Source of the DNA: Lachnospiraceae bacterium
GTDB lineage: Bacteria; Bacillota; Clostridia; Lachnospirales; Lachnospiraceae
DNA: 44,653 bases
Assembly (NCBI GenBank): GCA_022510605.1
Contig: JAFLTB010000013.1
Span: forward strand, 1-44,653
Direction of reading: 5' to 3'
The notes beneath the pieces are model-generated. The model was not told the DNA's origin. It did no database searches and was given only the letters and a program-made list of their open reading frames with translations. Below are positions 1,980 through 44,070 of this stretch, piece by piece. Each line of letters starts with the position of its first letter. The first letter of the stretch is position 1. The position numbers and the translations under genes were made by a program.

Positions 1980-2048
1980 CTAAAAAAATGATGCCATGAG
2001 CGGCAGGGTAACAACCGAAAGCAGGGTGGAATAAGCCAGTTCCTCATA
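1980..2048 (-). pseudogene. C-terminal remnant of an AEC (auxin efflux carrier) type permease
   Basis: Just downstream of the DegV-fused kinase, in a frame shifted by one base from its stop, the minus strand reads EELAYSTLLSVVTLPLMASF and then a TAG stop at 1980-1982. This hydrophobic tail resembles the last transmembrane helix of AEC-family permeases, which commonly end in a TLLS-hydrophobic-TLPL motif. No start codon, ribosome site or remaining permease sequence precedes it; the frame runs into the kinase gene. It looks like the leftover of a permease gene replaced or deleted when the signalling operon came to lie here. The stretch is short, so the identification is tentative. Confidence 0.45.
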
Positions 2049-4746
2049 TTTTATTATAGACCTTACCATCCACCTTGGTCAGATAGGACAGTCCCATGGA
2101 GCCAAGCCCGCCGTTGCAGGAACAGGATACAGAAGCTCTTTCCACAATCACATTTTCAAATGGAATATATTTTAGTATTTCATTTACAAATTCTTCCTGT
2201 TGTTTTATAGTACAGCCCGCATGGCTGATAAATACTACCCTTGTATCAATCCGGCTCTTTCTGCGCAGCAGTTTGTGGATGAATCGTTTCTTTGCTCTGT
2301 CCAGATTTCCTGTGTGGAATCCTGCTATTTTAAGACTGTTCTGGCGCATCCGCAAAACGGGATGCAGATTCAGTATGTCGAAAACGGATGCCAGCCTTTT
2401 GCCCACGTAGCCGCTGGCAGCAAAACTCTGCATATCAGGCATGAGAAATGCGGTCGTAATTTGCTGCTTTAATATTTCAAGTTCCTGACAAAGTTCCTCC
2501 ACCTGATTACAGCCGTTGCGGAGCAGACGACTGGCCGCTAATACCAGCAGGCCTTCTCCACAGGAAATATGCCCTCCGTCAATGACATGCACATGGTCAA
2601 ACCCTTCCGCTGCACGGGCCGCTCTCTCGAAACTATCGCCGGTCCCCGAAGCCATGGAAATATGGATTACCTCTTCTGCCTCCGTAAGTGCTTCCGAATA
2701 AAAAGCCTCATAGTCTTCTACCGGTGCACTGACAGCCACTGCCCTGCTTCCCTGGTGGGACAGGTGGCGCGACAAATTGTCTGCATCGATTTCCAGCGTA
2801 TCACGGAAAAGACCTCTTTCTGTTTCGATATATAAATAGAGCACCTTTAAATCATAGTATCCTATATATTTCCTGGATAAGTCGCTGACGCAGTCTGTAG
2901 AAATCTGTATCTTTTTGTGCTTTCTTCGGAGTGGCATCTGTGAGATTGCTGCCGCTGTGCTGTATTCCTCTGCATTCATCTGATATTCAATCAGTTCCTC
3001 TGGCAGGAATTTAAGCACTTCTGCTTCCAGCAGACTGCTATCCACCGGTTTGGCCAGATACCCATCAAATCCATTTTCAAGATACATCTGCTTATCCTCT
3101 GCCGAGGAGTTGGCAGTTACTATAATTACCGGCGTCTGGAAGCCCAGCCCGCTTTCCTGCCGGCGAAGTTCTTTCAAGACTTCCTCTCCGTCCATGCCTG
3201 GCATCCTACTGTCAAGAAGAATCACATTGTATACCTTTTTCTTTACCATCTCCAGACACTCTCCACCATTTCTGGCCGTATCAACTTGAACCTTGGTGGC
3301 ACGCAGCAGTTTGCTGATGACCATCAGGTTGCTTTCATTATCATCCACAACAAGAACCTTTGCCATTGGTGCCTCAAAGCTCTGTTTATAATGCCCACGC
3401 TGGCTGCTCTGCAACCTTCGCAGGTGATTTACATGACCAATCGGCCTGTTATCCACCACAAACTGCTCTAAAGTCACAGTAAATACAGAACCCTGCCTGT
3501 AAATACTGTCAACAGTAATTGTACCTCCCATCAGACTGACTAACTGCTTCGTAATGGCAAGTCCCAGTCCGCTTCCCTCTATTTTACGGTTCTTTTCCTT
3601 GTCTATTCTTTTAAAATAATCGTATAGGGATTCCAAATCTTCTTTTTTGATGCCAATCCCCGTATCGCTGACAGAAATTGTCAGTCGCTCCATACCATCA
3701 GAGGTCTGCTCACCCCGTACAGAAAAAATCACAGAACCTTTCTGCGTGTATTTTGCTGCATTGGTCAACAGGTTAATCAGAATCTGCTTAATGCGCACTT
3801 CATCTCCCCGCAGTACGGCAGGCAGGTCACTGTCAATATTGATTATAAAATCCAGATCCTTCTCACTCATACGAACCTGCATTAATCCCACCACATCTTC
3901 AAACAACTCCCGTGTCTGATACGATACCGGAACAATGGACATGCGGTCGCTGGCAATCTGTGAAAAGTCCAGAATATCATTTATCAAAGTCAACAGAATT
4001 TTACTTGCATTTTTCACCTTCAGGGCATCTTCTGCCACTTCATCGGAAATATCTTCCCGTAATATCATCTCATTTAATCCGATAATGGTATTAATCGGAG
4101 TTCGAATCTCATGACTCATATTGGCAAAAAAAGCATCCTTGGATTTACCGATTTTTTCAATTTCGTCTTTCTGCATTAATGTGCGGCTCTTCTCCCACTC
4201 GTAGGAACGAATCTGGAACCGCATAATAAGCCCTACCGCAACTCCTACGACTATAACAGCAAATACGGAATCATAATAAATAGCTGCCTTTGAGCCAAGG
4301 GGTACAATTAAATCTGAATGAAAATATGCATACACATAGGTAGCAATATCTGTCAGAACTGCCAAAAGAAGAAAAATGAGAAGTTTGATTCCCCGGTACA
4401 TAATAAAAATATAGAGAATACCAAGAACAAACCATGTAGTCGCGCCGCCATTAATTCCACCGCTGGAAAAGAACACCAGTGGAAATATACCGCAGATAAC
4501 CGTTACGGCAAATAATACGGATGCAAAACCCACCTTATGATACTTGAATGTGGCTACCATGGAAATTAATATAATGACAAGCACTCCAAAAATAGGAATG
4601 GAATTGCTTAAGGGATCGTTCAACGCAAACCCTGCCACAATCCCGGCACAAGACACTGTCAGAGCCACTATTAAACTCAACCGGAACAGTCTCTCTCTTA
4701 TATCTGCCGCCCCTTTATAAATTACCTCTTTTATTTTTTTCAGCAT
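2044..4746 (-). CDS. Membrane hybrid histidine kinase with receiver and C-terminal DegV (fatty-acid-binding) domain
   Basis: A 900-residue protein. Residues 22-177 hold about six transmembrane helices. HisKA follows with SHEIRTP, putting the phosphoryl-accepting histidine at H212. The HATPase region (about 315-430) has the N box around N325-N329, DTGIGI (361-366) and GSGLGL (391-396). A receiver (462-582) has acidic pair D468/D469, phospho-acceptor D512, T544 and K566. Residues 612-900 match the DegV/EDD fold: an opening STD, SAP at 673-675 where the family has TSxPS, SGT at 700-702, VIDGG, GYVGKR, HPVL and a closing GGLGSMG. DegV proteins such as FakB bind fatty acids. The TSxPS threonine is valine here, and the usual late histidine is replaced by a CxC (C875, C877). 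The start has GAGGATAAG before it. It is last of four genes, 7 bp from its neighbour. A lipid-sensing role is inference. Confidence 0.88.
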   Translation of the reverse strand: MLKKIKEVIYKGAADIRERLFRLSLIVALTVSCAGIVAGFALNDPLSNSIPIFGVLVIILISMVATFKYHKVGFASVLFAVTVICGIFPLVFFSSGGINGGATTWFVLGILYIFIMYRGIKLLIFLLLAVLTDIATYVYAYFHSDLIVPLGSKAAIYYDSVFAVIVVGVAVGLIMRFQIRSYEWEKSRTLMQKDEIEKIGKSKDAFFANMSHEIRTPINTIIGLNEMILREDISDEVAEDALKVKNASKILLTLINDILDFSQIASDRMSIVPVSYQTRELFEDVVGLMQVRMSEKDLDFIINIDSDLPAVLRGDEVRIKQILINLLTNAAKYTQKGSVIFSVRGEQTSDGMERLTISVSDTGIGIKKEDLESLYDYFKRIDKEKNRKIEGSGLGLAITKQLVSLMGGTITVDSIYRQGSVFTVTLEQFVVDNRPIGHVNHLRRLQSSQRGHYKQSFEAPMAKVLVVDDNESNLMVISKLLRATKVQVDTARNGGECLEMVKKKVYNVILLDSRMPGMDGEEVLKELRRQESGLGFQTPVIIVTANSSAEDKQMYLENGFDGYLAKPVDSSLLEAEVLKFLPEELIEYQMNAEEYSTAAAISQMPLRRKHKKIQISTDCVSDLSRKYIGYYDLKVLYLYIETERGLFRDTLEIDADNLSRHLSHQGSRAVAVSAPVEDYEAFYSEALTEAEEVIHISMASGTGDSFERAARAAEGFDHVHVIDGGHISCGEGLLVLAASRLLRNGCNQVEELCQELEILKQQITTAFLMPDMQSFAASGYVGKRLASVFDILNLHPVLRMRQNSLKIAGFHTGNLDRAKKRFIHKLLRRKSRIDTRVVFISHAGCTIKQQEEFVNEILKYIPFENVIVERASVSCSCNGGLGSMGLSYLTKVDGKVYNKI

Positions 4747-4753
4747 CTTATCC

Positions 4754-7516
4754 TCACCTTCTGTCCTTTAATCTTGATACGACTTCGGATGCAGATAAAT
4801 AATCCGACATCTCAATTTTATAAATAACAGTCTCCATCATCTCACTCAGGGAATGGCCACGGAAACTGCATTTTGATAAACGCTCTGCGATAGCGGTCAT
4901 CTGGTCATGGTCAAAGGCAAAGGCCGCATCCTCAAATTCCAGTGCAATTCTGTCCAGTTCTTCCTCCTCCAGCACTTCCAGTTCATTCTGAGATGCCTGC
5001 TCCTCCTGAGGCAGAAGAGTTCTGCTTTTCTTCATCATATCCAAAATCTGCGCATATTCCTCCATCATGGCGTCATGGTGCTCCAGAATATATTTTTCAT
5101 CATTACGCTTACCCGCAAGCTCCAGTTCCTTTGCCATACCGGACAGTTTTTCCACACCAACGCTCATCATTGTACTCTTCAGGGCATGTACAAGAGTTGT
5201 ATAATTCTTCCAATCCTTTGTCTCATAGAGTTGTCCTATTTTGTTCCGATCCTCTGGCCCTGCCATGCTTATCAGCCGTAAAACCTCAATATAATTTTCC
5301 AGACCGCCACAATATTGCAATCCCAGCTGTTCATTAAAGCTTTCCTCCGGTAAATCCGTATTACGCTTGTCAGCCTCCTGTCCCTTCTTAGGCTCCTCGG
5401 CCTTCCTCTCCTCTTTTTCTGTCGCCACAGTGTTTGCACTCTCTTCGACAGGTTGAAGTTTTTCCTGCGGAAGATTCCTCTTTAATACCCTCTCCAATAC
5501 GGATACTTCAATTGGTTTTGCTATAAAATCCTGAAATCCTTCGTTCAAAAACATCTCGCGCATACCGCCCACCGCATTGGCTGTTACAGCAATAATCGGA
5601 ATTTTTTTGAAGTAATTGCCCTGCTTCTGGCGAATCCGCTTTAATGTTTCAACCCCGTCCATCTCTGGCATCATATGATCCATAAGAACCGCATCATAAT
5701 TCATGCTTTCAATTTTGTCCAGTGCTTCTGCCCCACTGGTGGCTATGGCTGTCTGTATTTTATAGGGGCGAAGCAGGCCCTCCAGCACGCGGATATTCAT
5801 CAGGTTATCATCCACCACCAGTACAGTTATATCCGGTGCAATAAACTTACCCCGATGATAGTAACTTATATCCATTTCCTGTATCTTGTCTTCATCATTC
5901 AATGCCATAACAATTGGCAACACAAAGAACGGCTTATACAGGCGCCGGATTTTCGGATTGGATACCTCTTCATCATTGTGGCGTTCCAGAATTATCACGA
6001 CCTTTGTGGTCTCTGACATAGTATCAAAATATTCCCTGTCTTCTTCGTACTCCTCTATGCTGATAAAAACATGGGTAAATATCTCACGATCTGCCCTTCG
6101 CCTCAATTCCGCCAGGTTATGGCAGAAATGACACTTCACCTTCAACTGCACAATCATGTGGTATATTACCTTGCTATATGCTTCCCTGACCTCAGGATGG
6201 TCATATTTTTCCATATCAATGTAAATCGCTGCGTTTATACTCTCCCGATTCCGTACAACTGCAATCGGCGCAGGGTCCACCACCTTCTGTGGAATGACAA
6301 ATTGAATCTCACTCCCCCTGCCAAACTCACTGGAAACAGTAATAAAGCCACCCAGCATTTCCACCAGAGCCTGCGAAATCGCAAGGCCTAATCCCATACC
6401 CTCCTTCTGGCGATTCCGTTTCGTATCGACCTGCGTAAAACTGGTAAACAGTTTTTCCAGACTTTCCTTCTTCATACCGATACCAGTATCCTTGATACAT
6501 ACAATCAGATTAACACCATACGCTGCTTTTCTGGAACTGATATGAATGCTGACACAGCCCTCCACTGTAAATTTCAGGGCGTTATTCACCAGATTCATAA
6601 TAATTCTTCGGATTTTCTGCTCATCTCCCTTCAGACTGCTTGGAAGATTGACATCGCAGTCCACCAACAAATCAATGGGCTTCCCGCTTTTTCGTGCCAT
6701 GGACATATTGATAACATCATTTATGGTAGAGGTAATGTTATAGGTTTCCTCCACCAGTGTCATTTTCCCAGACTGCATTTCCGTAAAATCTAATACATCC
6801 GTAACAATGGACTGCAGACTGCGGCCAGCCGTCTGAATGCCAAATACATCCGCGCGCACCTGAGTCGTCAGTTCCTCACGGAGTATAATTTCACTCATGC
6901 CACAGATTGTATTGATTGGCGTACGAATTTCATGGCTGACATTTGCCAGAAAATCATCTTTGCTGCGCTCTGCTTCCTTCAGAGAATCAATAATCTGCGT
7001 CTGTTTTTCCATGCTCTCCAGACGCTTTTTATTAAGAACATATACAACGTATTCAATAAAAAAAACGGAAACAATTTCTAAAACTGTTTGAAGAATTTTT
7101 TCTCCAGATGAAAAATCTATGGTCTGCCTAATGAAAAGATGATAGACATCCAAAAAAATAGATACGATAACCGTTATATAAATAATTTCCGGTATACCGT
7201 AAAATACAAACATTACGGCAAAAACTAAAAGAATGGGTGCCGTCATAGACAAACTTGCCGTGCCTACGGACCAAAGTATAACACCCATCTGCATCAGACT
7301 TGCTGTGGCATACGCACGGAAGGAAAATGTCTGCATTCTGGTATAATACATGATAAAGCCAAACAGCCAGCCCGCATCTGTAAGCAGTGCCAGCCAATTC
7401 GACCATTCGCTTCTTATGGCAATAATCGTCATTGCCACGCTACATACAAAATAGAACAACAGCATGATTTTTTCTATTCTCAATTGTTCCTTTATTTGAG
7501 CGTTCTCTTCCGGCAT
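4754..7516 (-). CDS. Membrane hybrid histidine kinase with pseudo-receiver, receiver and HPt domains
   Basis: A 920-residue protein. About six transmembrane helices lie between residues 15 and 162, followed by a short coiled coil. The HisKA domain has SHEIRTP with H195. The HATPase domain spans about 295-410 (NxxNNALKF near 308, DTGIGM, GMGLGL). Residues 424-540 look like a receiver in outline and end in a K-P (K528), but lack the acidic pocket and phospho-acceptor, so this is probably a pseudo-receiver. A canonical receiver (563-682) has D569/D570, D613, T645 and K667. After a charged linker, an HPt helical bundle (about 725-830) carries LVHALKS with H777. The set H195, D613, H777 supports an intramolecular relay that could pass phosphate to the single-receiver proteins encoded upstream. 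GGAGG precedes the start. Ten bp separate it from the upstream gene. Confidence 0.9.
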   Translation of the reverse strand: MPEENAQIKEQLRIEKIMLLFYFVCSVAMTIIAIRSEWSNWLALLTDAGWLFGFIMYYTRMQTFSFRAYATASLMQMGVILWSVGTASLSMTAPILLVFAVMFVFYGIPEIIYITVIVSIFLDVYHLFIRQTIDFSSGEKILQTVLEIVSVFFIEYVVYVLNKKRLESMEKQTQIIDSLKEAERSKDDFLANVSHEIRTPINTICGMSEIILREELTTQVRADVFGIQTAGRSLQSIVTDVLDFTEMQSGKMTLVEETYNITSTINDVINMSMARKSGKPIDLLVDCDVNLPSSLKGDEQKIRRIIMNLVNNALKFTVEGCVSIHISSRKAAYGVNLIVCIKDTGIGMKKESLEKLFTSFTQVDTKRNRQKEGMGLGLAISQALVEMLGGFITVSSEFGRGSEIQFVIPQKVVDPAPIAVVRNRESINAAIYIDMEKYDHPEVREAYSKVIYHMIVQLKVKCHFCHNLAELRRRADREIFTHVFISIEEYEEDREYFDTMSETTKVVIILERHNDEEVSNPKIRRLYKPFFVLPIVMALNDEDKIQEMDISYYHRGKFIAPDITVLVVDDNLMNIRVLEGLLRPYKIQTAIATSGAEALDKIESMNYDAVLMDHMMPEMDGVETLKRIRQKQGNYFKKIPIIAVTANAVGGMREMFLNEGFQDFIAKPIEVSVLERVLKRNLPQEKLQPVEESANTVATEKEERKAEEPKKGQEADKRNTDLPEESFNEQLGLQYCGGLENYIEVLRLISMAGPEDRNKIGQLYETKDWKNYTTLVHALKSTMMSVGVEKLSGMAKELELAGKRNDEKYILEHHDAMMEEYAQILDMMKKSRTLLPQEEQASQNELEVLEEEELDRIALEFEDAAFAFDHDQMTAIAERLSKCSFRGHSLSEMMETVIYKIEMSDYLSASEVVSRLKDRR

Positions 7517-7526
7517 CCTTTTCCTC

Positions 7527-7946
7527 CTATCCCATTTCTGACAATCTTTTCATTGCCTCGGCTAATTTTAAGCGCACACTAACGCGCGCCTTGACTACCT
7601 CGGGGATAAACGGCTTCGTCACATAATCCTCACCACCCATTTCAAATGCTCTGGCGATATCCTCGGAGTTCTCAAAGGCAGAAATGAAAATAACCGGTAC
7701 ATTTCTCGTGTCCGAGTTCCCCTTTAATCTTCTGCAGACTTCAAACCCATCCATCTCCGGCATGGAGACATCCAGAAGAACCAGTTCAGGATTACATCGG
7801 GAAAAAACCTTTAGTGCCTGTGCACCACTTTCTGCCAATACTGGCTGGTATCCCATTTCCATGATGATGTTTCTAAGTATAAAACGGTGACTTTCCGCAT
7901 CATCTACAATCAGAATCCGTGATTTTTGCGAACTCGTTCCTTCCAT
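7527..7946 (-). CDS. Single-domain response regulator (receiver with helical C-terminal stub)
   Basis: A 139-residue protein starting MEGTSSQKSRILIVDD. Two adjacent ATGs (ending at 7949 and 7946) follow GGGAGG; the second has the better five-base spacing. The receiver has the acidic DD pair, phospho-acceptor D in LLDVSMPEMDG, a serine in place of the usual threonine in FISAFE, and the lysine in VTKPF. The ending GGEDYVTKPFIPEVVKARV with a short charged helix is typical of receivers that precede an output domain, but here the protein stops after about 15 residues. It therefore probably acts as a phosphate carrier or through protein contact. It lies 25 bp after the first receiver gene and 10 bp before the HPt-containing kinase. 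Confidence 0.88.
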   Translation of the reverse strand: MEGTSSQKSRILIVDDAESHRFILRNIIMEMGYQPVLAESGAQALKVFSRCNPELVLLDVSMPEMDGFEVCRRLKGNSDTRNVPVIFISAFENSEDIARAFEMGGEDYVTKPFIPEVVKARVSVRLKLAEAMKRLSEMG

Positions 7947-7971
7947 CATAACCTCCCTATGATGCAGATTG

Positions 7972-8334
7972 CTATTGGGCCAGTACCCTCTCCACCGTCT
8001 CAAGCAGACGACTCTGCTGTACCGGCTTCAACAGATACCCCTGTGGCCGGTGTATCAGTACCTCTTCCACTTTCTTCCGTCCATCTACTCCTGTGAGGAA
8101 AACAACCGGAATATTCTTCGTCTCATCCTGCTCCTGTAGCTGCCGAAAGGTTTCCTTTCCGCTCATAATTGGCATGTCATAATCCAGCAGAATCAAATCT
8201 GGCAGCTCTCTTTTCGCAATGGCCAGACCTTCCATGCCGGAGGTGGCCATTATCGTTTCGTACTTATTCTGCAGCAGCCCCTGTAAAATTCTAAGCTGAA
8301 TCATGCTGTCATCAATCAATAAAATAGATTTCAT
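7972..8334 (-). CDS. CheY-like single-domain response regulator
   Basis: A 120-residue protein that is only a receiver domain: LLIDDS at the start, phospho-acceptor D in LILLDYDMPIMSG, threonine in VFLTGVDG and lysine in LLKPVQ. No DNA-binding or enzymatic domain follows, so output must be through protein interaction or phosphotransfer. It is the first gene of the four-gene signalling operon. An AGGATGG sequence lies about six bases before the ATG. Sequence similarity with the second receiver protein is low outside the fold, so they are probably not recent duplicates. Confidence 0.88.
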   Translation of the reverse strand: MKSILLIDDSMIQLRILQGLLQNKYETIMATSGMEGLAIAKRELPDLILLDYDMPIMSGKETFRQLQEQDETKNIPVVFLTGVDGRKKVEEVLIHRPQGYLLKPVQQSRLLETVERVLAQ

Positions 8335-13113: not shown

Positions 13114-15372
13114 TTATTGCCTCAGCGCTTCCATAAAAGCATAATAAGAGGCTTTGGTATCATAAAGCCCGCTGTCAAACAACAACGGATGGCAGTTTCC
13201 ACGGGACTGCTGCCCGCCCAGCCAGGAAACGCCGTCATATAACCCCCACATTGTAAAGCCGGTAATAGCCCCGGTATTTTTCTGAAACTCCACTAACCGC
13301 TTCATCAGTCTTGTTACAAAAATCGACTGGTGCGACTCTGTCTGGGCCTTATCCCGATAACTGCCTCCACTGCTGTTAATGGTGGCATCCCATTCGGTAA
13401 TCTGTATCTCCAGTCCCGCCTGGGCAAATTTTTCCAGCGCTCCCATATAAAGTTCCACAGAGGAATCCACATCCAGATGGCTCTGCATACCGATGCCCCG
13501 GCAGATTGGTTCCGGTTCTCCCTCATTGATGTATGCAATCAGCGACAGAATCTGCTCTGGCGTGTTTCCCGTATATGTGTTGAAATCATTATAAAAAAGC
13601 GAAACGGAATCTGTTAGTGATACGGCTTCCAGCATATCGTAGGCAATTTGATAGGCCCTTTTTATATAGGCCGGATGAGTCTCCAGATTCCCGGAGCGGT
13701 TGCCATATACCGCCGACCAGTTGGCATCCGAATCGTTGTGGAGATATTCATTGGCCACATCCCAGGCATATACCACCTGACAGTATGCGCCACCCTCCAC
13801 CGTATATACATGGTGCATGACACTCCGTATATACATCTCCATCCGGGCATCCATAACATCCTCTGACACATAACTGCCGGAGGCGAGATACTCCTCTTTG
13901 AAAAACCATTCCGGCGTCTGGCTGTGCCACACCAGGGTATGTGCCCTCATTTTCAGTCCGTTTTCCCTGGCAATGGCCAACACCGCATCCACTGTGTCAA
14001 AATCCAGAACCGGCACCGTTTCTTCGGTATAACCAGCCGGAATCACATAATTTTCGGTATTTGCCCGGGCTGTCTCCGTATCAATGACCGAAGTCTTTAG
14101 AACGGACTCCGGCTTCATTTCATTTTCCAGCGTAAAACTGGAATAATGCTTCTTTACATAGGCAAGGGTAGGTTTGTCCTGTAACTGCTTCAGTTTCAGA
14201 CAGCTCCCCATTTTCCCAAAGACCGGGTCTCCCGCTTCCTTTATGCTGGGAAGGTTCTCCCCCTCAAGGGCGGTAATTACCACATCCTCCAAATAAAAGG
14301 AGGCAGTGGCATCCTCGGGCATTTCAAAATAAATATAAAACTGTGTAAAAGAATCCGGCACCGTAAAACTTCCCCGGAGCTTTGTCCATCTGTTGGAGGC
14401 TGTCACCGACTGCACCGGCACATAACTGCCTGCCCTGTCCTGATAAGTACATTGCAGCGTACCAGTCCCACTGTCCAGCTTGACATAGGCCTCAATCCGA
14501 TAGGTATCTCCGGGTATTAGCACCCCGCCAGCCTCATAGCCGGCACCGTGCCACGTTTCACTTCGTTCCGATACATACAGACAGTTTCCACTGCGTCCAC
14601 CGGAGACCGAGGCGACGGAGGCCTCACCCCGTGGCGTAAATCCATCGGTTCCACTGTCAAATCCGGCCTGTTTTACAATCACCGGCCCCGGCGATGGCTC
14701 CGGAGACGGTGAGGTCACATTTCCGGGATTGTCCGAACCGGAAGGATTGTCCGAGCCGGGAGAAGTCCCCGGATTATTCACCGAACTGCCAGAGGAGCCC
14801 GGCGTACCGGTATCACCCCCAGGCGTCGCAGGCTGTCCCGTTTGTTCCGTCCTTTTTTTCTTTTTTACGGTGACAACACAGACCAGCTTCTTCTTTCCGA
14901 TTTTGGCAGTAATCCGGGCCTTGCCCTTCTTTCTTGCCTTCACCCTGCCCTTGGCGGAGACGGAGGCCACCTTTTTCTTACTGCTCTTCCAGCGGACCTT
15001 CTTCTTTGTCCCTTTTACCTTCAGGCGAAAGGCCGTTCCCACCTGCAGGGTTATTTTCTTTTTATTTAACCGTACGTTTGTCTGTTTTTTTGCTTCGGAC
15101 TGCATCGGCAGAAAAATCAAAAAACACACCAAAAGGATATGCATTATCAGAACGGCCGGCATGCCAATGACGAATTTCCGGTGCTTTGTCTTGTGCCGGA
15201 ATGCGTACATTCCTGCCAAAGCTCCCACACTGCCTCCGATAATGGCCAAAAGAAACAGCGTCTTTTCCGATATGCGCCAGGCGCCCTTTCTTGCCTTGGC
15301 TTTATCAATTCCCATGGCGGCAAAGGCCAGAAGGTTCACGGCTGCCAGATAAACAATAAGCAGTTTCTCCAT
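13114..15372 (-). CDS. Membrane-anchored GH10 endo-1,4-beta-xylanase with DUF1294, Big_2-like and carbohydrate-binding domains
   Basis: A 752-residue multidomain protein. Residues 1-90 match DUF1294: two or three transmembrane helices with GIDKAKARKGAWRISEKTL and GGSVGALAGMYAFRHKT. Residues 98-172 form a lysine-rich Big_2-like immunoglobulin fold. A Gly/Pro/Ser/Asn linker covers 178-232. A CBM4/9-like beta-sandwich spans about 235-370. The GH10 barrel covers about 375-752, with RAHTLVWHSQTPEW, acid/base E542 in WDVANE and nucleophile E660 in QITEWD; this should cleave the xylan backbone outside the cell. There is no ordinary signal peptide, so the DUF1294 helices presumably act as membrane anchor, which is unusual. 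GGAGG precedes the start. The gene sits 51 bp after aspS and 37 bp before galM. Confidence 0.88.
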   Translation of the reverse strand: MEKLLIVYLAAVNLLAFAAMGIDKAKARKGAWRISEKTLFLLAIIGGSVGALAGMYAFRHKTKHRKFVIGMPAVLIMHILLVCFLIFLPMQSEAKKQTNVRLNKKKITLQVGTAFRLKVKGTKKKVRWKSSKKKVASVSAKGRVKARKKGKARITAKIGKKKLVCVVTVKKKKRTEQTGQPATPGGDTGTPGSSGSSVNNPGTSPGSDNPSGSDNPGNVTSPSPEPSPGPVIVKQAGFDSGTDGFTPRGEASVASVSGGRSGNCLYVSERSETWHGAGYEAGGVLIPGDTYRIEAYVKLDSGTGTLQCTYQDRAGSYVPVQSVTASNRWTKLRGSFTVPDSFTQFYIYFEMPEDATASFYLEDVVITALEGENLPSIKEAGDPVFGKMGSCLKLKQLQDKPTLAYVKKHYSSFTLENEMKPESVLKTSVIDTETARANTENYVIPAGYTEETVPVLDFDTVDAVLAIARENGLKMRAHTLVWHSQTPEWFFKEEYLASGSYVSEDVMDARMEMYIRSVMHHVYTVEGGAYCQVVYAWDVANEYLHNDSDANWSAVYGNRSGNLETHPAYIKRAYQIAYDMLEAVSLTDSVSLFYNDFNTYTGNTPEQILSLIAYINEGEPEPICRGIGMQSHLDVDSSVELYMGALEKFAQAGLEIQITEWDATINSSGGSYRDKAQTESHQSIFVTRLMKRLVEFQKNTGAITGFTMWGLYDGVSWLGGQQSRGNCHPLLFDSGLYDTKASYYAFMEALRQ

Positions 15373-34054: not shown

Positions 34055-34147
34055 GAATCCTTTTTCTTTTTTACCATATTCTTACCAAAAACCACTAGTT
34101 TTTTTTACATATTCATTGTAAAATATAAATAATAGGAGGTGTGCAGC

Positions 34148-35686
34148 ATGGCAATATCCACTTATGCAGCCATTGATATCGGTTCTGGCGAATTATCCAT
34201 GAAGCTTTACGAGGTTTCCAAACAGCGTGGCATCTGTGAACTCACCCATGTCCGCCACAAGTTCTCTCTGGGAGCGGAAATCTATGCAAAGGGTTTTATT
34301 TCTTACCAGACCATAGGCGAAATCTGTAATACCCTGAATGATTTCAAACGGATTATAAACGAATACCAGACTGCTTCCTGGCAGATTTATGCTACCAGTA
34401 TTCTGCGGGAAGCCCGCAACCTTCTTGTCATCATTGACCAGATAAAAGTTCAGACAGGGTTTAATGTTCGCGTCCTAAGCAACAGTGAGTCCCGTTTTCT
34501 CTACTACAAGGCGCTGGCCTTGAAAAAGGGGAACTTTGAATCCCTGATTGAAGACGGCACCCTGATTGTGGATATTGATGCCGGCAGCGTCCAGCTTTCC
34601 ATTTTTGACCAGGGAAAATTATGTGTGACTCAGAATCTCCTTTTGGGCTCCACCCGCATCCGGGAGCTTTTACAGGCCATGCAGGATGAAGCCTATGACT
34701 TTCATGCCCTGATTGATGAATATATTGAGAAAGACCTTTTGACATTCAAAAAATTATATTTAGATTCAACAAAAATAAGACACGTGATTGCCATTGGTGA
34801 GATGATTCCCGATATTTACTATTACATGAAGAGCAATCGCCAGAAAAATGGCAAGGGGGATTTTGACGGAATCCTGACCCGAAAGGCTATGTCCAAAAAC
34901 AAGCTTCTCAAAGTGTTTGCCGGCGCCAGCACCCGGCTGGCGATTCCTACCATACTCATCTGCCGGAAAATCTCCCAGTTGACAGACTGTGATGAAATTC
35001 TTCTTTCCGCCGTCGACCTCTGCGACGGTATGGCAGTCGAATATGCGGAAAAGAAAGTAAAACTCAGACTGGCACACAACTTTACCGAGGACATTTTATC
35101 CACCTCGGAAAATATAGCCCGTAAATATATGGTAGATATGAAGCATGTGGAAAACGTCCAGACACTGGCCCTGCAGATTTTTGACCGGATTCGGAAGCTC
35201 CATGGCCTGGGCAAGCGGGAGCGCCTGCTTTTGCAGATTGCCGTGATTCTCCACAGCTGCGGTGCTTACATCAACGAGATACAGTCCAGGGAATGCTCCT
35301 ATCGTATCATCATGTCCACGGAAATCATTGGCATTTCCCATAAGGAACGTACCATCGTGGCTAACATGGTGCGTTACAACAGTTCCTCCTTTCCCTCGTA
35401 TGAAGAGCTGGATGAGGATTTTACCAAAGAAGAATATATTACTATCGTAAAATTAAATGCAATTTTGAAAACAGCCAACGTACTGGATAAGAGCAACCGG
35501 CAGAAAATTAAAAATGTGGGCGTAACTTTGGAAGACGGAATCCTTACTATCACCGCCGACACCATGGCGGATATTACATTGGAAAAAGGGCTATTTCACC
35601 AGAAAGCCGACGTATTCCAGGAGGTCTTTGGTATCCGCCCTACGCTGAAACAAAGACGAAGCGGCGGCTCTTCGGGAAGGAGGTAA
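34148..35686 (+). CDS. Ppx/GppA-family exopolyphosphatase-like protein
   Basis: A 512-residue protein of the Ppx/GppA family, related to the actin/HSP70 fold. The first phosphate loop is AAIDIGSGELSMKLYEV. The second loop reads IVDIDAGSVQLSIF, where the family usually has a glycine-rich DIGGGS, so it is altered. The C-terminal half (about 310-510) is an HD-like helical domain (LLLQIAVILHSCGAYI, ISHKERTIVANMVRYN). The start ATG at 34148 is eight bases after GGAGG. It lies 2 bp before ppk1. It probably degrades polyphosphate or pppGpp, or regulates Ppk1; the changed loop leaves activity uncertain. Confidence 0.85.
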   Translation: MAISTYAAIDIGSGELSMKLYEVSKQRGICELTHVRHKFSLGAEIYAKGFISYQTIGEICNTLNDFKRIINEYQTASWQIYATSILREARNLLVIIDQIKVQTGFNVRVLSNSESRFLYYKALALKKGNFESLIEDGTLIVDIDAGSVQLSIFDQGKLCVTQNLLLGSTRIRELLQAMQDEAYDFHALIDEYIEKDLLTFKKLYLDSTKIRHVIAIGEMIPDIYYYMKSNRQKNGKGDFDGILTRKAMSKNKLLKVFAGASTRLAIPTILICRKISQLTDCDEILLSAVDLCDGMAVEYAEKKVKLRLAHNFTEDILSTSENIARKYMVDMKHVENVQTLALQIFDRIRKLHGLGKRERLLLQIAVILHSCGAYINEIQSRECSYRIIMSTEIIGISHKERTIVANMVRYNSSSFPSYEELDEDFTKEEYITIVKLNAILKTANVLDKSNRQKIKNVGVTLEDGILTITADTMADITLEKGLFHQKADVFQEVFGIRPTLKQRRSGGSSGRR

Positions 35687-35688
35687 AC

Positions 35689-37749
35689 ATGAATAAATCA
35701 GAAAAATTTAAAAACCGGGAATTGAGCTGGCTGGACTTTAACTACCGGGTTCTGTCCGAGGCCAAGGACAAACAGATACCCCTGATGGAGAGACTGAAAT
35801 TTTTGAGTATTACCGCCTCCAATCTGGATGAATTTTTTATGGTCCGGGTCGCCTCCCTGAAGGATCAGGTCAATGTCGGCTACACCAAAAAAGACATGGC
35901 CGGCATGACACCAGCGGAGCAGATTGACGAAATTATGAAGATGACCCATTCTTTTGTGGCTGCCCAGTATTCCACTTACAACCGCTCTTTTCTTCCCTCT
36001 CTGAAAAAGGCAGGGCTGAAAATAGTGACGGAATACGAAAAACTGACACCGGAGCAGGCCGACTATGTGGACACCTATTTTCAACAGGAGGTGTTCCCGG
36101 TACTGACTCCCATGGCGGTGGATTCCTCCAGACCCTTTCCACTGATTCGCAATAAGTCCCTGAACATCGGGGCTCTGTTGATGGATAAGAAAAAGAAGGA
36201 CACGCTGGATTTTGCCACCGTTCAGGTGCCTTCCGTCCTGCCCCGGGTCGTACCTATTCCCGCCGACGAGGACAACTGCACCACCATTCTTTTGCTGGAG
36301 CAGATAATAGAAAAAAATCTGCAGAAATTGTTTATGAACTATAAGGTACTGTGCGCCACCCCGTTTCGGGTCATGCGCAATGCGGATTTAACCATTGATG
36401 AGGATGAGGCCGCCGACCTCCTCATTGAAATTGAAAAACAGCTGAAAAAGCGCCAATGGGGCGAAGCCATCCGTTTGGAGGTGGAAGAGGGCATCGACAA
36501 GCGGCTTTTGAAAATCCTGCGCCGGGAGCTGAGCATCGGGGAGGCGGCTATTTTCAAAACCAACGGCCCTCTGGACCTCACTTTCCTAATGAAGGTATAT
36601 AGCATAGAAGGCTTTGAGAAGTTGAAGGAAGCGCCATTTACTCCACAACCGCCCAAATATCTGGATCCTGACCGGGGATTATTTGAGCAGATACGGGAGC
36701 ATGACATCCTGCTTCACCACCCGTATGAATCCTTTGACCCGGTGGTGAACTTTGTACGGCTGGCTGCTAAAGACCCGGATGTACTGGCCATCAAGCAGAC
36801 TCTGTACCGGGTCAGCCGCCACTCCCCAATCATCGCCTCCCTGGCAGAAGCCGCAGAAAACGGCAAACAGGTGTCGGTGCTGGTGGAATTAAAGGCCCGG
36901 TTTGACGAAGAAAACAATATCGTCTGGGCCCGCATGCTGGAAAAAGCCGGCTGTCATGTTATTTATGGGCTGGTGGGCTTAAAGACCCACAGCAAAATCA
37001 CTCTGGTGGTGCGCCGGGAAGAGGACGGTATCCGCCGTTATGTCCATCTGGGCACCGGCAACTATAACGACTCCACCGCCAGACTTTACACGGACATGGG
37101 CATTTTCACCTGCCGGCAGCCCTATGGCGAGGACGCCACGGCCGTCTTTAATATGCTGTCCGGCTATTCGGAGCCACTGGTCTGGAACAAACTTTCTCTG
37201 GCTCCTGCCTGGCTGCGGGATAAATTCCTCTTTCTCATTGCCAGGGAGCAGGAAAACGCTGCCAGAGGCCGGCCGGCCAAAATCATAGCCAAGATGAACT
37301 CTCTCTGCGACCCCGGCATCATTGAATCCCTTTATGCGGCCTCTGAAGCCGGCGTGGAAATCCAGTTAATTGTCCGGGGCATCTGCTGCCTGCGGGCCGG
37401 AGTGCCGGGACTCAGCGAAAATATCCATGTGCGCTCCATTGTAGGCACCTTTCTGGAGCACTCCCGCATTTACTATTTTGAAAACAGCGGGGAACCGGAA
37501 ATCTATATGGGAAGCGCCGACTGGATGCCCCGCAATCTGGATAAGCGGGTGGAAATCCTGTTCCCAGTGGAAGCACCAGAGCTGCAGGAGGAAATCAAAA
37601 AGGTTCTGGCGATTCAACTGGCAGATACAAAAAAAGCCCACCTTCTCACGCCGGAGGGCACCTATGAGAAGGTAGACCAGAGAGGAAAAACACCGCTGAA
37701 TTCCCAGATGTATTTCTGTAAGCATGCAAAAGAATCGGCGGATAAATAA
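35689..37749 (+). CDS. ppk1: Polyphosphate kinase 1
   Basis: A 686-residue enzyme that makes inorganic polyphosphate from ATP. Landmarks are NRELSWLDFNYRVL at the start, FLSITASNLDEFFMVRVA, ALKQTLYRVS-like IKQTLYRVS, the histidine in YVHLGTGNYND, and the second histidine in FLEHSRIYYFEN. These are the histidines of the type needed for phosphoenzyme formation in E. coli PPK. Length is normal. GGAGG overlaps the end of the ppx-like gene and the start codon is 2 bp after its stop, so the two are coupled. A weak hairpin containing its stop codon follows. Confidence 0.95.
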   Translation: MNKSEKFKNRELSWLDFNYRVLSEAKDKQIPLMERLKFLSITASNLDEFFMVRVASLKDQVNVGYTKKDMAGMTPAEQIDEIMKMTHSFVAAQYSTYNRSFLPSLKKAGLKIVTEYEKLTPEQADYVDTYFQQEVFPVLTPMAVDSSRPFPLIRNKSLNIGALLMDKKKKDTLDFATVQVPSVLPRVVPIPADEDNCTTILLLEQIIEKNLQKLFMNYKVLCATPFRVMRNADLTIDEDEAADLLIEIEKQLKKRQWGEAIRLEVEEGIDKRLLKILRRELSIGEAAIFKTNGPLDLTFLMKVYSIEGFEKLKEAPFTPQPPKYLDPDRGLFEQIREHDILLHHPYESFDPVVNFVRLAAKDPDVLAIKQTLYRVSRHSPIIASLAEAAENGKQVSVLVELKARFDEENNIVWARMLEKAGCHVIYGLVGLKTHSKITLVVRREEDGIRRYVHLGTGNYNDSTARLYTDMGIFTCRQPYGEDATAVFNMLSGYSEPLVWNKLSLAPAWLRDKFLFLIAREQENAARGRPAKIIAKMNSLCDPGIIESLYAASEAGVEIQLIVRGICCLRAGVPGLSENIHVRSIVGTFLEHSRIYYFENSGEPEIYMGSADWMPRNLDKRVEILFPVEAPELQEEIKKVLAIQLADTKKAHLLTPEGTYEKVDQRGKTPLNSQMYFCKHAKESADK

Positions 37750-39736: not shown

Positions 39737-40585
39737 CTATACCACGGCGGCGCCGGATATGAAAAAGTACAAAAGCACCACCACGCCAAGGGCAATCCGG
39801 TAATATCCAAAAACCTTAAAATCGTGTTTGCGGATATAGGACATCAGAAACTTAATGACAAACAGGGAAACGATAAAGGCCACCAACATTCCCGTTATCA
39901 GGGCCACATACCCCATGGCACCAAAGTTCAGTCCATTTTTCACAATTTTCAAAAGACTGGCGCCAAACATAACCGGAATTGCCAGATAAAAGGTATATTC
40001 TGCTGCTGCGCCCCTTGCAACACCAATGAGCAGCGCACCAATGATGGTTGCACCGGAACGGGATGTTCCCGGAACAATCGCCGCCAAAAGTTGAAAAATA
40101 CCAATGATAATCGCTGTATTATAGCCAATCTCTGCCACGTTTGTAATCACCGGTCTTCTGCCCTTGTTCCAGTTTTCTATGACAATAAACAAAATTCCGT
40201 ATATAATCAGAGCTCCTGCCACTACAATCGCGTTATAAAACATCTCCTCAATAATGGAATCAAACAAAACCCCTACAATAGCTGCCGGCAGACAGGATAC
40301 CAGAATTTTAAACCACAGCTGCATAATCTCCATATTCACAAATGGTTTTCCATTCCGTTTATATTTGAAATTAAAAGGCCATATTTTTTTCCAGAACAAC
40401 AGTACCACCGCCAGAATCGCTCCCAGCTGCACTACCACAAGAAACATCTCCTGAAAATCAGCGTCGGAAAACGCCAGAAACTGGTTTATCAGAATCATAT
40501 GACCGGTACTGCTGATGGGAAGCCACTCGGTAATTCCCTCAACAATTCCTAACAGCGCTGCAATCAAAACATCAAACGGTTCCAT
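39737..40585 (-). CDS. uppP: Undecaprenyl-diphosphatase (BacA/UppP)
   Basis: A 282-residue integral membrane protein that dephosphorylates undecaprenyl diphosphate to recycle the cell-wall lipid carrier. Family motifs are intact: EGITEWLPISSTGHM near the N-terminus and PGTSRSGATI in the second half, with about eight hydrophobic helices. The start MEPFDVLIAAL follows AAGGA; a TTG six codons upstream overlaps the ribosome site. It also confers bacitracin tolerance in other bacteria. It converges with the amidase gene (15 bp between stops) and is divergent from the phospholipid operon. Confidence 0.94.
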   Translation of the reverse strand: MEPFDVLIAALLGIVEGITEWLPISSTGHMILINQFLAFSDADFQEMFLVVVQLGAILAVVLLFWKKIWPFNFKYKRNGKPFVNMEIMQLWFKILVSCLPAAIVGVLFDSIIEEMFYNAIVVAGALIIYGILFIVIENWNKGRRPVITNVAEIGYNTAIIIGIFQLLAAIVPGTSRSGATIIGALLIGVARGAAAEYTFYLAIPVMFGASLLKIVKNGLNFGAMGYVALITGMLVAFIVSLFVIKFLMSYIRKHDFKVFGYYRIALGVVVLLYFFISGAAVV

Positions 40586-40669
40586 TTTATCCTTACCCTC
40601 CAAATTCTAAATCTCTCGCTTTCAACCATAGCCATTTTATCATAAAGACTATATCAAAACAATCATAAG

Positions 40670-40698
40670 TTGCAAATTCGTCAAAAATATTGTAAACT
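40670..40698 (+). promoter_or_regulatory. Candidate promoter of the phospholipid operon
   Basis: TTGCAA (40670-40675), a 17-bp spacer and TAAACT (40693-40698). The start would be near 40705, which places the 10-bp inverted repeat directly at the 5' end of the RNA. Confidence 0.55.
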
Positions 40699-40706
40699 AT
40701 TATCGT

Positions 40707-40757
40707 ATGCCTGTCATCCATTCTGTCGGTATTGCCAGACAGCCCGCTGACAGGCAT
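40707..40757 (+). promoter_or_regulatory. Two-tier hairpin in the phospholipid operon leader
   Basis: ATGCCTGTCA (40707-40716) pairs perfectly with TGACAGGCAT (40748-40757). Inside it CTGTCGG (40723-40729) pairs with CC-A-GACAG (40735-40742). The hairpin ends 34 bases before the first start codon. No T-run follows, so it is not a plain terminator. It could be a protein-binding operator, a stabilising 5' hairpin or part of a regulatory RNA. Confidence 0.6.
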
Positions 40758-40791
40758 TCAGACAGGTATAAAGCACAAAAGGATGGACACT

Positions 40792-41511
40792 ATGTATAAC
40801 TGGTTAAAAAAATACATTGACCCGGTTGTTCCACTTTACAGCATCCTTCCCCTGACCGCCTGCTTTGCCCTGAACATGATTGTATACAGCGGCACTATGA
40901 TTTTATGCGCGGACTGGAAACACTATGATTTGACAACCTCCCTTGACCGTATGGTCCCTCTGGCTCCCCAGTGGATGTATGTCTATTTTGGATGCTACCT
41001 TTTCTGGATTGCCAACTACATTCTGGTAGGCCGCATCCATCGGGACAACAGGGAGAAATTTTACCGCTTTGTTGCCACGGATATGATGTCAAGACTGGTA
41101 TGTGCCATATTTTTCATTAGCATGCCCACCACCAATATCCGCCCGGCTGTGACGGGGGAAGGTTTTAGTAATATGATGCTGGCCTTTTTATACAATATTG
41201 ACCAGCCCACGAATCTGTTTCCTTCCATTCACTGCCTGGTAAGCTGGCTGTGTTATGTGGGAATCCGGGGAGAAAAAAAAGTCTCCCCATGGTACAGGGC
41301 CTTTTCCTGTATTTTTGCCCTGGCCGTAGCTGCCTCCACGCAGTTTACCAAACAGCATTATATTGCAGACGCTATTGCCGGTATTTTTCTGGCAGAATTC
41401 CTATTCTGGCTGAATAAAAAAATTTGCGCCTATACTTTATTACAACGCGCTTTTACCTGGCTGAACGATAAACTATACTTATGGCTAAAAGGAGAATCCT
41501 GTGAACAGTAA
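40792..41511 (+). CDS. PAP2-superfamily membrane phosphatase
   Basis: A 239-residue membrane protein with about six hydrophobic segments. The PAP2 motifs are recognisable: a C1-like region ending NIRPAV, C2 as FPSIHCLVSW (PSxH), and C3 as FTKQHYIADAIAG with histidine and aspartate in place. It likely removes phosphate from phosphatidic acid, phosphatidylglycerol phosphate or a polyprenyl phosphate at the membrane. AAAGGA is eight bases before the ATG at 40792; an earlier ATG at 40783 abuts that site. It is the first gene of the operon and overlaps the next by 11 bp. Confidence 0.85.
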   Translation: MYNWLKKYIDPVVPLYSILPLTACFALNMIVYSGTMILCADWKHYDLTTSLDRMVPLAPQWMYVYFGCYLFWIANYILVGRIHRDNREKFYRFVATDMMSRLVCAIFFISMPTTNIRPAVTGEGFSNMMLAFLYNIDQPTNLFPSIHCLVSWLCYVGIRGEKKVSPWYRAFSCIFALAVAASTQFTKQHYIADAIAGIFLAEFLFWLNKKICAYTLLQRAFTWLNDKLYLWLKGESCEQ

Positions 41512-42562
41512 AGTTAGAAAAAATATTCTCAACGCCCTGTTCCTTATAGCCCTGCTTGGAATTACCATCTGGGTAATTTTCAAAGATCAGGATTTGGGAG
41601 TTATTTGGAAAACCCTGACCGGAATTGCACCAGTTTTTCTCTTATCCGGCCTGGTTCTGGTTGTACTGTACGTATGCAGCGAATCCGTGATTATTAAGTA
41701 TCTGCTCCACACCGTACAGATTAAGGCACCTTTATTCAACTGCATCCGCTATTCCTTTGTAGGATTTTTCTACAGTTGTATCACGCCCTCCGCCACTGGC
41801 GGACAGCCGATGCAGATATATTACATGAAAAAACAGAACATTGATATTCCCACCGCCACTATCATATTGATGTTAGTGACCATTGAATACAAATTTGTTC
41901 TGGTTTTTGTCGGTCTGGCTTTGGTTTTATTTGGGCAGGGACTGGTTCAGACACTGACCGCAGAAGTGCAGTTTTTCCTCTATCTGGGTATTGCACTGAA
42001 TGTTTTCTGCGTCGCTTTCATGAGTCTTCTGGTCTTTTTGCCAGGTACGGCCAAGTTCCTGATTCTGAAGGGATTTGACCTGTTAAAAAAGATTCATCTT
42101 ATGAAAGAAAAAAACCACCGTACAGAACGGCTGGAAAATTCCATGGACATATACAGGAAGGCCTCTGTGTTTCTTAAGAATAACAAGCTGGCAATTTTTA
42201 ACACTACGCTGATTTCTTTTGTTCAGCGGTTTTTCCTGTTTTTTATTACCTATGTCGTGTACCGCAGTTTTGGACTTCATGCGGAGAGTGCCGTTACCAT
42301 CACCATTCTCCAGGCCGTAATCTCCATCTCTGTGGATATGCTTCCGCTTCCGGGCGGCATGGGCATCAGCGAGGGCTTGTATCTGCGGATTTTTGCTCCT
42401 ATCTTTGGGGGAATGACCGCTGCCACCGCCTCTCTGCTGGTAAGCCGTGGATTTAGTTACTATGTACTCATTATCATCAGTGGCATTATTGCCTTTATTA
42501 CACATCTCACTGTAAAAGATGATGAGACAAATCAGAAAGAAAAAGAAAGAGGTAAATCATGA
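41501..42562 (+). CDS. Flippase-like domain protein (MprF/UPF0104 type membrane protein)
   Basis: A 353-residue integral membrane protein matching the lysylphosphatidylglycerol synthase transmembrane/flippase-like family: about eight helices, CITPSATGGQPMQIYYM, and MLPLPGGMGISEGLYLR. The aminoacyltransferase domain of MprF is absent, so it is the translocase-like part only. The start is GTG at 41501, preceded by AAGGAG, and overlaps the PAP2 gene. It overlaps pssA by 4 bp at ATGA. A role in moving a phospholipid or lipid-linked sugar across the membrane is inferred from the family and neighbours. Confidence 0.85.
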   Translation: MNSKVRKNILNALFLIALLGITIWVIFKDQDLGVIWKTLTGIAPVFLLSGLVLVVLYVCSESVIIKYLLHTVQIKAPLFNCIRYSFVGFFYSCITPSATGGQPMQIYYMKKQNIDIPTATIILMLVTIEYKFVLVFVGLALVLFGQGLVQTLTAEVQFFLYLGIALNVFCVAFMSLLVFLPGTAKFLILKGFDLLKKIHLMKEKNHRTERLENSMDIYRKASVFLKNNKLAIFNTTLISFVQRFFLFFITYVVYRSFGLHAESAVTITILQAVISISVDMLPLPGGMGISEGLYLRIFAPIFGGMTAATASLLVSRGFSYYVLIIISGIIAFITHLTVKDDETNQKEKERGKS

Positions 42563-43182
42563 TAGGATTTTATAATTATTCTGTAATCGTAACATACCTG
42601 GGGGTTGCCCTGTCTGTAATTGGCATGGCGCTGGCATGCACCGGGCATTTTGAATATTCCATTCTCTGTCTGGCACTGGCCGGAGCCTGTGATACCTTTG
42701 ACGGAAAAATTGCCCGGGCCATGAAAAACCGCACCCGGGAAATGGAAATTTTCGGCGTACAGATTGACTCTCTCTGCGACATGGTCTGCTTTGGCGTAAC
42801 GCCGGCCGTCATAGCCTATCATATGGGATTACAGCGGGCCTGGGGCATAGCCATTGAGATTATCTTTGTTCTCTGTGGTGTTATTCGCCTGGCTTATTTC
42901 AATATGCTGGAGGAATTGAAACACATGGAACCGCCCAAGGATGAGAAGAAATACTACCGGGGACTTCCCATTACTACCATTACCATTGTTTTCCCTATTA
43001 TATATCTCTTTCACCCATGGGTACCACAGGAGACCTTTACCATTATTCTTGCGCTGATGCTTCTGATTGTAGCCTTTTTATACATACTGGATTTTCGGAT
43101 TAAAAAGCCAAGCAATGGCGCCATTATTGTAATGATGGTTTTTGTGGCCATCGTGATGCTGCGGGTGCTGAATATTTTCTAG
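42559..43182 (+). CDS. pssA: CDP-diacylglycerol--serine O-phosphatidyltransferase
   Basis: A 207-residue membrane enzyme of the CDP-alcohol phosphatidyltransferase family. The diagnostic motif D-x2-DG-x2-AR-...-G-x3-D-x3-D is present in CDTFDGKIARAM and FGVQIDSLCDMVCFG. The VCFGVTPA continuation and the following psd gene favour the serine enzyme over others in the family. It joins serine to CDP-diacylglycerol to give phosphatidylserine. The ATG overlaps the stop of the flippase-like gene, and psd follows after 15 bp. Confidence 0.9.
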   Translation: MIGFYNYSVIVTYLGVALSVIGMALACTGHFEYSILCLALAGACDTFDGKIARAMKNRTREMEIFGVQIDSLCDMVCFGVTPAVIAYHMGLQRAWGIAIEIIFVLCGVIRLAYFNMLEELKHMEPPKDEKKYYRGLPITTITIVFPIIYLFHPWVPQETFTIILALMLLIVAFLYILDFRIKKPSNGAIIVMMVFVAIVMLRVLNIF

Positions 43183-43197
43183 AAAGGTCAGGAATTC

Positions 43198-44070
43198 ATG
43201 GATTACATTGATTTACAAGGAAAAACAATTGAAAATACCACCAGCCAGGACCGGCTTCTGGAGTTTCTTTACACCAATCCCCTGGGGCGGATGCTGTTAA
43301 AACCACTGGTGCAGCCAGGATTTTCCCGACTGACCGGTGTTCTTTTATCCACAAGACTTTCTGCCCGGCTGATTAACCCCTTTGCCCGGAACAGTAACAT
43401 AGATATGACCGAATACCAGGAACAGAAATATACGTCCTTTAACGATTTTTTTACCCGGAAAATAAAACCGGACCGCCGTCCTCTGGCTGGGGATGCCAGC
43501 GTACTCATCAGTCCCTGCGACTGTAAAGCACTGGTCTATCCCGTCCGGGACAACAGCATCTTTTCTGTCAAGCACACGGAATACACTCTCCGTTCACTGC
43601 TTCGCAGTCCTGGTCTCGCCAAACGGTTTCAGGGAGGATACATCTATATTTTAAGACTGACAGTGGACGATTATCACCGCTATGTCTATGCCGCCTCCGG
43701 CCGGCAGTCAAAAAACTATCACATTGATGGCACCTTCCATACCGTAAATCCGGTGGCTAACGATTATCTGCCAATATACAAAGAAAACACAAGAGAATAT
43801 ACCCTTCTTCACACTGCCGAATTTGGCGATGTCCTCCAGATGGAGGTGGGGGCTCTGATGGTGGGGAAAATTTCCAACCACAAAGAAAGTGCCCCGGTAA
43901 AAAGAGGGGAAGAAAAGGGGTACTTTGAATATGGCGGTTCCACCATTATTGTACTGACCCAGAAGGGTGCCGCCGCTCCCCGTCCGGATTTACTGAAAAA
44001 TACCGAAAATGGTTACGAGACAAAACTGCTGCAGGGGCAGGAGCTGGGGCGGGCCAGTTCAGGCCTTTAA
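43198..44070 (+). CDS. psd: Phosphatidylserine decarboxylase
   Basis: A 290-residue enzyme that converts phosphatidylserine to phosphatidylethanolamine. The proenzyme cleaves itself at a serine to form a pyruvoyl group; here the site is YGGST with S248, in place of the more usual LGST. The rest of the triad is visible as D108 (SPCDCK) and H160 (DDYHRY). KISNHKE and the FNDFFTRK N-terminal motif fit the family. GAAAGG precedes the ATG. It is the last gene of the operon and is followed by a terminator. Confidence 0.93.
   Translation: MDYIDLQGKTIENTTSQDRLLEFLYTNPLGRMLLKPLVQPGFSRLTGVLLSTRLSARLINPFARNSNIDMTEYQEQKYTSFNDFFTRKIKPDRRPLAGDASVLISPCDCKALVYPVRDNSIFSVKHTEYTLRSLLRSPGLAKRFQGGYIYILRLTVDDYHRYVYAASGRQSKNYHIDGTFHTVNPVANDYLPIYKENTREYTLLHTAEFGDVLQMEVGALMVGKISNHKESAPVKRGEEKGYFEYGGSTIIVLTQKGAAAPRPDLLKNTENGYETKLLQGQELGRASSGL

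Follow-up and report, generated by a model that had tools for sequence, protein, structure and literature searches.

What does a DegV domain, the fold of the FakB-type fatty-acid carriers, do at the end of a sensor kinase? The question is raised by an unbroken frame of 900 codons (positions 2044-4746, minus strand) in a 44,653-nucleotide stretch of contig JAFLTB010000013.1 from a Lachnospiraceae bacterium, hereafter the window. The initial annotation, made from the letters alone, had located this gene correctly and left its strand unstated. The 900-aa product consists of six transmembrane helices followed by HisKA, HATPase, receiver (REC) and DegV domains, all encoded on the minus strand. The membrane region (residues ~16-180; 4207-4701) shows six hydrophobic peaks and six N-terminal helices in the structural model, and a Pfam scan returned no match to it. 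HisKA (residues 203-265; 3952-4140; 56.2 bits) carries the phospho-acceptor H212 at 4111-4113 and is followed by HATPase_c (residues 314-427; 3466-3807; 93.1 bits) and by the receiver (Response_reg, residues 464-576; 3019-3357; 94.6 bits) with D512 at 3211-3213. All four Pfam matches of the protein, DegV included, exceed their cut-offs, and neither H212 nor D512 varies in an alignment of 35 full-length sequences that includes the window's. Pfam, model and alignment thus agree with the domain order, and with both phosphorylation residues, first proposed for this gene. The protein is a hybrid histidine kinase, with a HisKA bearing its histidine, an HATPase and a receiver bearing its aspartate; it departs from the tripartite HK-REC-Hpt layout in that its own chain holds no Hpt, which is found instead in an upstream partner. 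Residues 592-609, linking receiver and DegV (2920-2973, minus strand), are flexible in the full-length model (pLDDT <50), whose pTM of 0.47 means that the domain arrangement and the DegV-kinase contacts cannot be read from it. A motif with the consensus FFxSGGxxGGAPxWFVxG is conserved in the six-helix region of the window protein (4207-4701, minus strand) and its homologues, and four kinases devoid of DegV (L121, L122, L125 and L168) share the same membrane profile or type.

The C-terminal domain (residues 612-890; 2077-2913, minus strand) is assigned to DegV by Pfam, NCBIfam and fold alike. It scores 112.6 bits against Pfam DegV (PF02645; cut-off 27), covering positions 1-279 of the 280 in the profile, and 124.4 against NCBIfam TIGR00762 (cut-off 99.7). 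When the domain alone was modelled with AF2 (pLDDT 96, pTM 0.92) and searched against the PDB, ranks 1-45 were occupied by DegV/FakB-type chains, led by 2dt8, 1pzx and 4x9x; the query TM-scores of 2dt8, 4x9x and 5uto, all among the top folds, were 0.82-0.83. The domain therefore shares both the profile and the whole fold of the FakB/DegV fatty-acid-binding proteins, but is here fused to a kinase. A profile search and a fold comparison with FakB had been proposed as checks on the DegV assignment, and both came out in its favour. The ligands that appear in the titles of these DegV/FakB chains are all lipids or fatty acids. Between the window and the related locus L058, dN/dS is ~0.09 for DegV and ~0.11 for the receiver; synonymous sites are near saturation, so the suggestion that purifying selection constrains DegV to about the same degree as the receiver is a mild point only.

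A fusion of this kind might have been produced by an assembly or gene-calling error joining two genes, the genome being a draft of 123 contigs in which no sign supporting such an error was seen. The same genome holds a second, contig-cut copy of the fused gene (C98), and the survey of domain order suggested in the initial annotation found the fusion, by hand count, in 36 of 200 genomes of the family; one of these 36, G103, has just the variant in which HisKA and REC were not detected, and the genes of G163 and G174 are cut by contig ends. A survey of 391 genomes of the class detected frames of at least 600 aa in nine genomes among the matches listed, six belonging to the same family and three to one other family, the latter confirmed as fusions (L093-L095). 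At the phylum level (249 genomes, E-values up to 1e-60), at least three genomes contained such frames, all from the same family. Survey matches were selected by rank or E-value, and weak cases may be missed. Named contigs contributed 17 further fused loci, 11 of them titled Lachnospiraceae and the other six Clostridiales, Oscillospiraceae, Ruminiclostridium, Erysipelotrichaceae or simply bacterium, with several titles citing rumen or gut samples; their DegV domains share at most 79% identity with the best match in the earlier set. In a tree of 70 DegV domains, from which L084 was omitted because its DegV piece is shorter than 200 residues, the 54 fused domains, the window and its paralogue among them, form one clade (100/94) apart from 14 stand-alone proteins including FakB2. 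The second copy, the recurrence and the single clade led us to reject an assembly join, for which we see virtually no chance.

While the initial annotation had treated the DegV kinase alone, gene pairs across the loci reveal that it belongs to a unit of two kinases that have only one Hpt between them. The partner, a hybrid kinase of 920 aa with the Pfam order HisKA-HATPase-REC-Hpt (4754-7516, minus strand), lies 7 nt upstream of the DegV kinase and provides the sole Hpt of the pair (partner residues 747-821; 5054-5278, minus strand; Pfam). A single-domain response regulator is encoded 10 nt upstream of the partner (7527-8003; Pfam), together with a second one (7972-8334; Pfam and NCBIfam), both on the minus strand. 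The upstream gene could be assessed in 61 of the 71 fused loci, and there it encodes a second hybrid kinase. The genes of these pairs overlap or lie at most 25 nt apart in 57 cases; overlaps account for 39, by 4 nt in 27. Exactly one Hpt per kinase pair was found in 60 of the 61 pairs, carried by the partner in 48 and located at the C-terminus of the DegV protein itself, with a partner lacking it, in 12. The exception is L119, where neither gene includes an Hpt; an Hpt stretch (119.5 bits) lies in the same frame past the stop codon that ends the DegV gene at residue 939. This stretch may reflect a split gene or be a separate gene, and the locus was counted as an exception. Ten of the 71 loci were omitted from the count, eight owing to a cut, short or broken gene, either their own or the upstream one (L043, L045, L049, L064, L069, L070, L076 and L081), and two for having no adjacent kinase (L054 and L057). 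L114 was included although its upstream gene is a 239-aa piece with part of the kinase and the receiver. The one-Hpt rule refers to the two pair genes only, and extra Hpt genes occur within three genes at L048, L051, L055, L067, L077 and L079. On the DegV tree the own-Hpt state needs two changes. Relocation of the Hpt may represent one or two evolutionary events, as read from this tree, so the 12 own-Hpt loci are not 12 independent observations. In the two loci devoid of an adjacent kinase (L054:7290-9878 and L057:7251-9863), DegV is joined to an HATPase, and neither HisKA nor REC was detected (Pfam on L054, phmmer on both). Both have a GGDEF gene two genes downstream of the DegV gene, and the next gene of L054 also encodes a GGDEF protein.

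Two stand-alone DegV genes, L072 and L073, branch between the stand-alone relatives and the fused clade. Each overlaps an upstream HK-REC-Hpt gene, by 13 and 4 nt respectively, and over their whole length these kinases match the partner kinases better than the DegV kinases. At the N-terminus neither kinase matches the membrane profile of the partners, nor does either fit that of the DegV kinases well, the L073 kinase giving it a weak, high-bias match of ~15 bits. Since they overlap a partner-type gene and branch just outside the clade, DegV seems tied to the partner kinase even where the second kinase is missing. The simplest reading is that DegV worked beside the partner kinase first, its fusion to a TM-HK-REC kinase coming later; independent splitting would be a less simple explanation.

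How much of the FakB function could this domain have kept? We compared FakB2 positions 61, 93, 170, 202 and 266, numbered after Broussard 2016, which we take to be the like-titled paper on 4x9x; in our alignment the residues at these positions are T, S, R, R and H. An excerpt of PMC8892158 attributes to the FakB1 residues Thr62, Ser95, Arg173, Arg205 and His270 the ligand network, the catalytic arginine and the contact with FakA and the membrane. None of the five is retained in the window protein. The T61 equivalent is A671 in a gapless alignment (2734-2736), alignment pairs S93 with G703 (2638-2640), R170 with Y780 (2407-2409) and H266 with N878 (2113-2115), and R202 corresponds by motif to T812 (2311-2313), all on the minus strand. 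The R202 register is set by the conserved glycine that follows and is less certain than that of the other four sites. Two of these losses had been read from the letters, not always at the right residue. The threonine of the TSxPS motif had been described as replaced by valine; its hydroxyl is indeed lost, to A671 in the gapless alignment, and V672 takes its place by eye only if one gap is allowed, with the same loss. The late histidine had been reported to give way to a CxC; the histidine is gone, and what replaces it is N878 just after the CxC, this asparagine being the conserved feature. The GYVGKR cited as a DegV match is present (779-784) and occupies the place of the FakB GGRI, Y780 standing at that of Arg170, whereas the SGT at 700-702 is out of register with the ligand-serine motif of FakB, as the S93 equivalent is G703.

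Across the group these sites diverge unevenly. The T61 site is S or T in 41 of the 54 fused domains and Thr in all 14 stand-alone relatives, which all likewise have Ser at the S93 site, against 28 of the 54. At the R170 site (FakB1 Arg173, catalysis), Arg is retained in 23 fused domains and in 14/14 stand-alone ones, and is not kept in 31 of the 54, window included. The H266 site is Asn in 49 fused domains and His in one, but His in all 14 stand-alone proteins, FakB2 included. The second arginine, at the R202 site (FakB1 Arg205, contact with FakA and the membrane), is kept in only two of the 54 (L059 and L096) and in 12 of the 14, the two stand-alone sequences without an aligned arginine (FakB2 itself and L001) being shifted in that alignment. 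L072 and L073 already have Asn at the H266 site and no Arg at the second one. Serine or threonine at T61 and serine at S93 in part of the group fit a polar site kept in many members. The window protein lacks both hydroxyls, as do most of the sequences closest to it, so a FakB-like holding of a carboxylate cannot be assumed there. With these functional residues partly or mostly substituted, the fused group has retained the fold and often the polar head-group site, but has largely left FakA chemistry, and the relatives of the window are among those furthest from it. The FakB1 tunnel residues Ala121 and Ala158, considered by eye as a gauge of the pocket, were dropped because FakB2 differs there too.

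DegV follows the receiver, where output domains are also found, which counts against its being a receptor. Were it an output, receiver phosphorylation would control a lipid carrier in the way of a response-regulator effector and the kinase would tune fatty-acid delivery to lipid synthesis, for which a FakA encoded elsewhere in the genome is available. That reading appears unlikely to us, given that what FakB uses to bind FakA, to catalyse and to hold its ligand, as set out in PMC8892158, is lost in the window protein and variably in the group, and that no FakA-like gene was seen near the loci: none was found within four genes in 56 neighbourhoods (54 fused loci plus L072 and L073, some ending at contig edges). 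A role linked to FakA was rejected on this count. The initial annotation had proposed that cytoplasmic fatty-acid or acyl-phosphate status controls the phosphorelay. Its premise, a DegV fold fused to a hybrid kinase, is upheld by profile, fold, second copy and survey; sensing of acyl-phosphate through FakA has become less likely in view of the substituted FakA-related residues and the lack of a FakA-like gene near the 56 loci.

The substitution of all five residues in the window protein, and of several in many relatives, would also suit a DegV domain that no longer binds a ligand and acts purely as a scaffold, or as a dimer contact, to hold both kinases together, and a stand-alone DegV beside a partner-type kinase would fit a docking protein. 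Yet the model predicts a complete fold, hydroxyls persist at T61 and S93 in many members and Asn occupies the head-group site in nearly all, polar features that a mere scaffold would not need; we give it perhaps a one-in-four standing among the readings. Exchange of His for Asn and loss of basic residues alter the head-group chemistry and could instead have adapted the pocket to a small, soluble non-lipid molecule, a quite improbable outcome considering that lipids and fatty acids are the ligands named in the chain titles of the fold search. That DegV is a ligand receptor modulating the shared two-kinase phosphorelay is the reading we prefer, and we rate it about as probable as all others together.

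Genes nearby suggest where such a relay could lead. A GGDEF, EAL or HD-GYP gene lies on the same strand within four genes in 27 of the 56 loci, and a lone short receiver is present in seven (at L045 it may be only a gene fragment). CheA, CheW and MCP genes occur in this order directly upstream of the pair in eight (L034, L036, L059, L060, L061, L062, L063 and L082), so a chemosensory array may share the relay. Neither c-di-GMP nor chemosensory genes are nearby in 22 loci, the window among them, some being contig-cut. Elsewhere in the window, far from the kinase pair, genes of BacA, PAP2, LPG-synthase type, CDP-alcohol transferase and phosphatidylserine decarboxylase extend over 39737-44070, and Ppx/GppA adjoins a polyphosphate kinase at 34139-37749. 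A 752-aa frame (13114-15372, minus strand) unusually joins an N-terminal DUF1294 to Big_2, CBM_4_9 and a GH10 glycoside hydrolase, and could encode a membrane-anchored xylanase-type enzyme.

The pair resembles known systems in part only. Hybrid kinases of the BarA/ArcB/TorS type share the HisKA-HATPase-REC core, and the partner has their HK-REC-Hpt layout; matches to their NCBIfam models fall far below the cut-offs, making this a likeness of layout only. In the DegV kinase, DegV takes the place of the Hpt, which resides on the neighbour or, in some members, after DegV. RetS is a partner kinase of GacS in Pseudomonas. Sensor kinases acting on each other are described there for GacS and its partners in an excerpt of PMC5992135. 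Here the two kinases are encoded side by side, with a single Hpt in the pair, and their interaction is putative. RpfC and SaeS are fatty-acid-responsive kinases and, to our knowledge, contain no DegV domain. Fatty acid kinase has been linked to SaeRS activity (PMC5539427, in excerpt). The likeness lies in signal transduction tied to fatty acids. The initial annotation knew of no characterised sensor of this arrangement, and we likewise found no description of a DegV-hybrid kinase fusion among the open-access papers listed, as judged from their titles and the openings of their abstracts; the architecture may well be present in domain databases without remark.

We therefore propose the following model, in which ligand binding, an input rather than output role and the phosphate route of the DegV kinase are inferred. 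The frame at 2044-4746 would be the DegV-bearing half of a two-kinase phosphorelay, its receptor deriving from FakB/DegV fatty-acid carriers and having left the FakA pathway. DegV would bind a hydrophobic, probably fatty-acid-like putative ligand, either in the cytoplasm or at the membrane's inner leaflet, and binding would change the activity of the attached kinase and receiver; fatty-acid sensing by this putative receptor is plausible. Both kinases would share one Hpt, in the window that of the partner (4754-7516), and phosphate would travel on to a receiver outside the pair. The two single-domain regulators at 7527-8334 are the most likely recipients in the window; in relatives the recipient would often be a receiver-bearing c-di-GMP enzyme. 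More tentatively, and with somewhat less confidence than in the receptor itself, a lineage of Clostridia, several members of which come from animal guts, could have recruited a FakB-type carrier as a receptor for lipids inside the cell. The receptor would at first have been a free-standing protein working with a hybrid kinase, a state that L072 and L073 would have kept, and would later have been joined to a second membrane kinase; the resulting two-kinase, one-Hpt relay would let lipid status steer c-di-GMP and chemosensory output.

The recurrence of the paired arrangement in many relatives suggests an undescribed way to sense a lipid-like molecule inside the cell. If true, bacterial phosphorelays would possess an intracellular lipid-type sensor, and one use would be shown for DegV proteins without the FakA-related residues. 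With the one-Hpt rule, nature supplies a clear example in which the sharing of one relay by two kinases can be studied, and the stand-alone relatives encoded next to kinases of the partner type may preserve the state that preceded the fusion.
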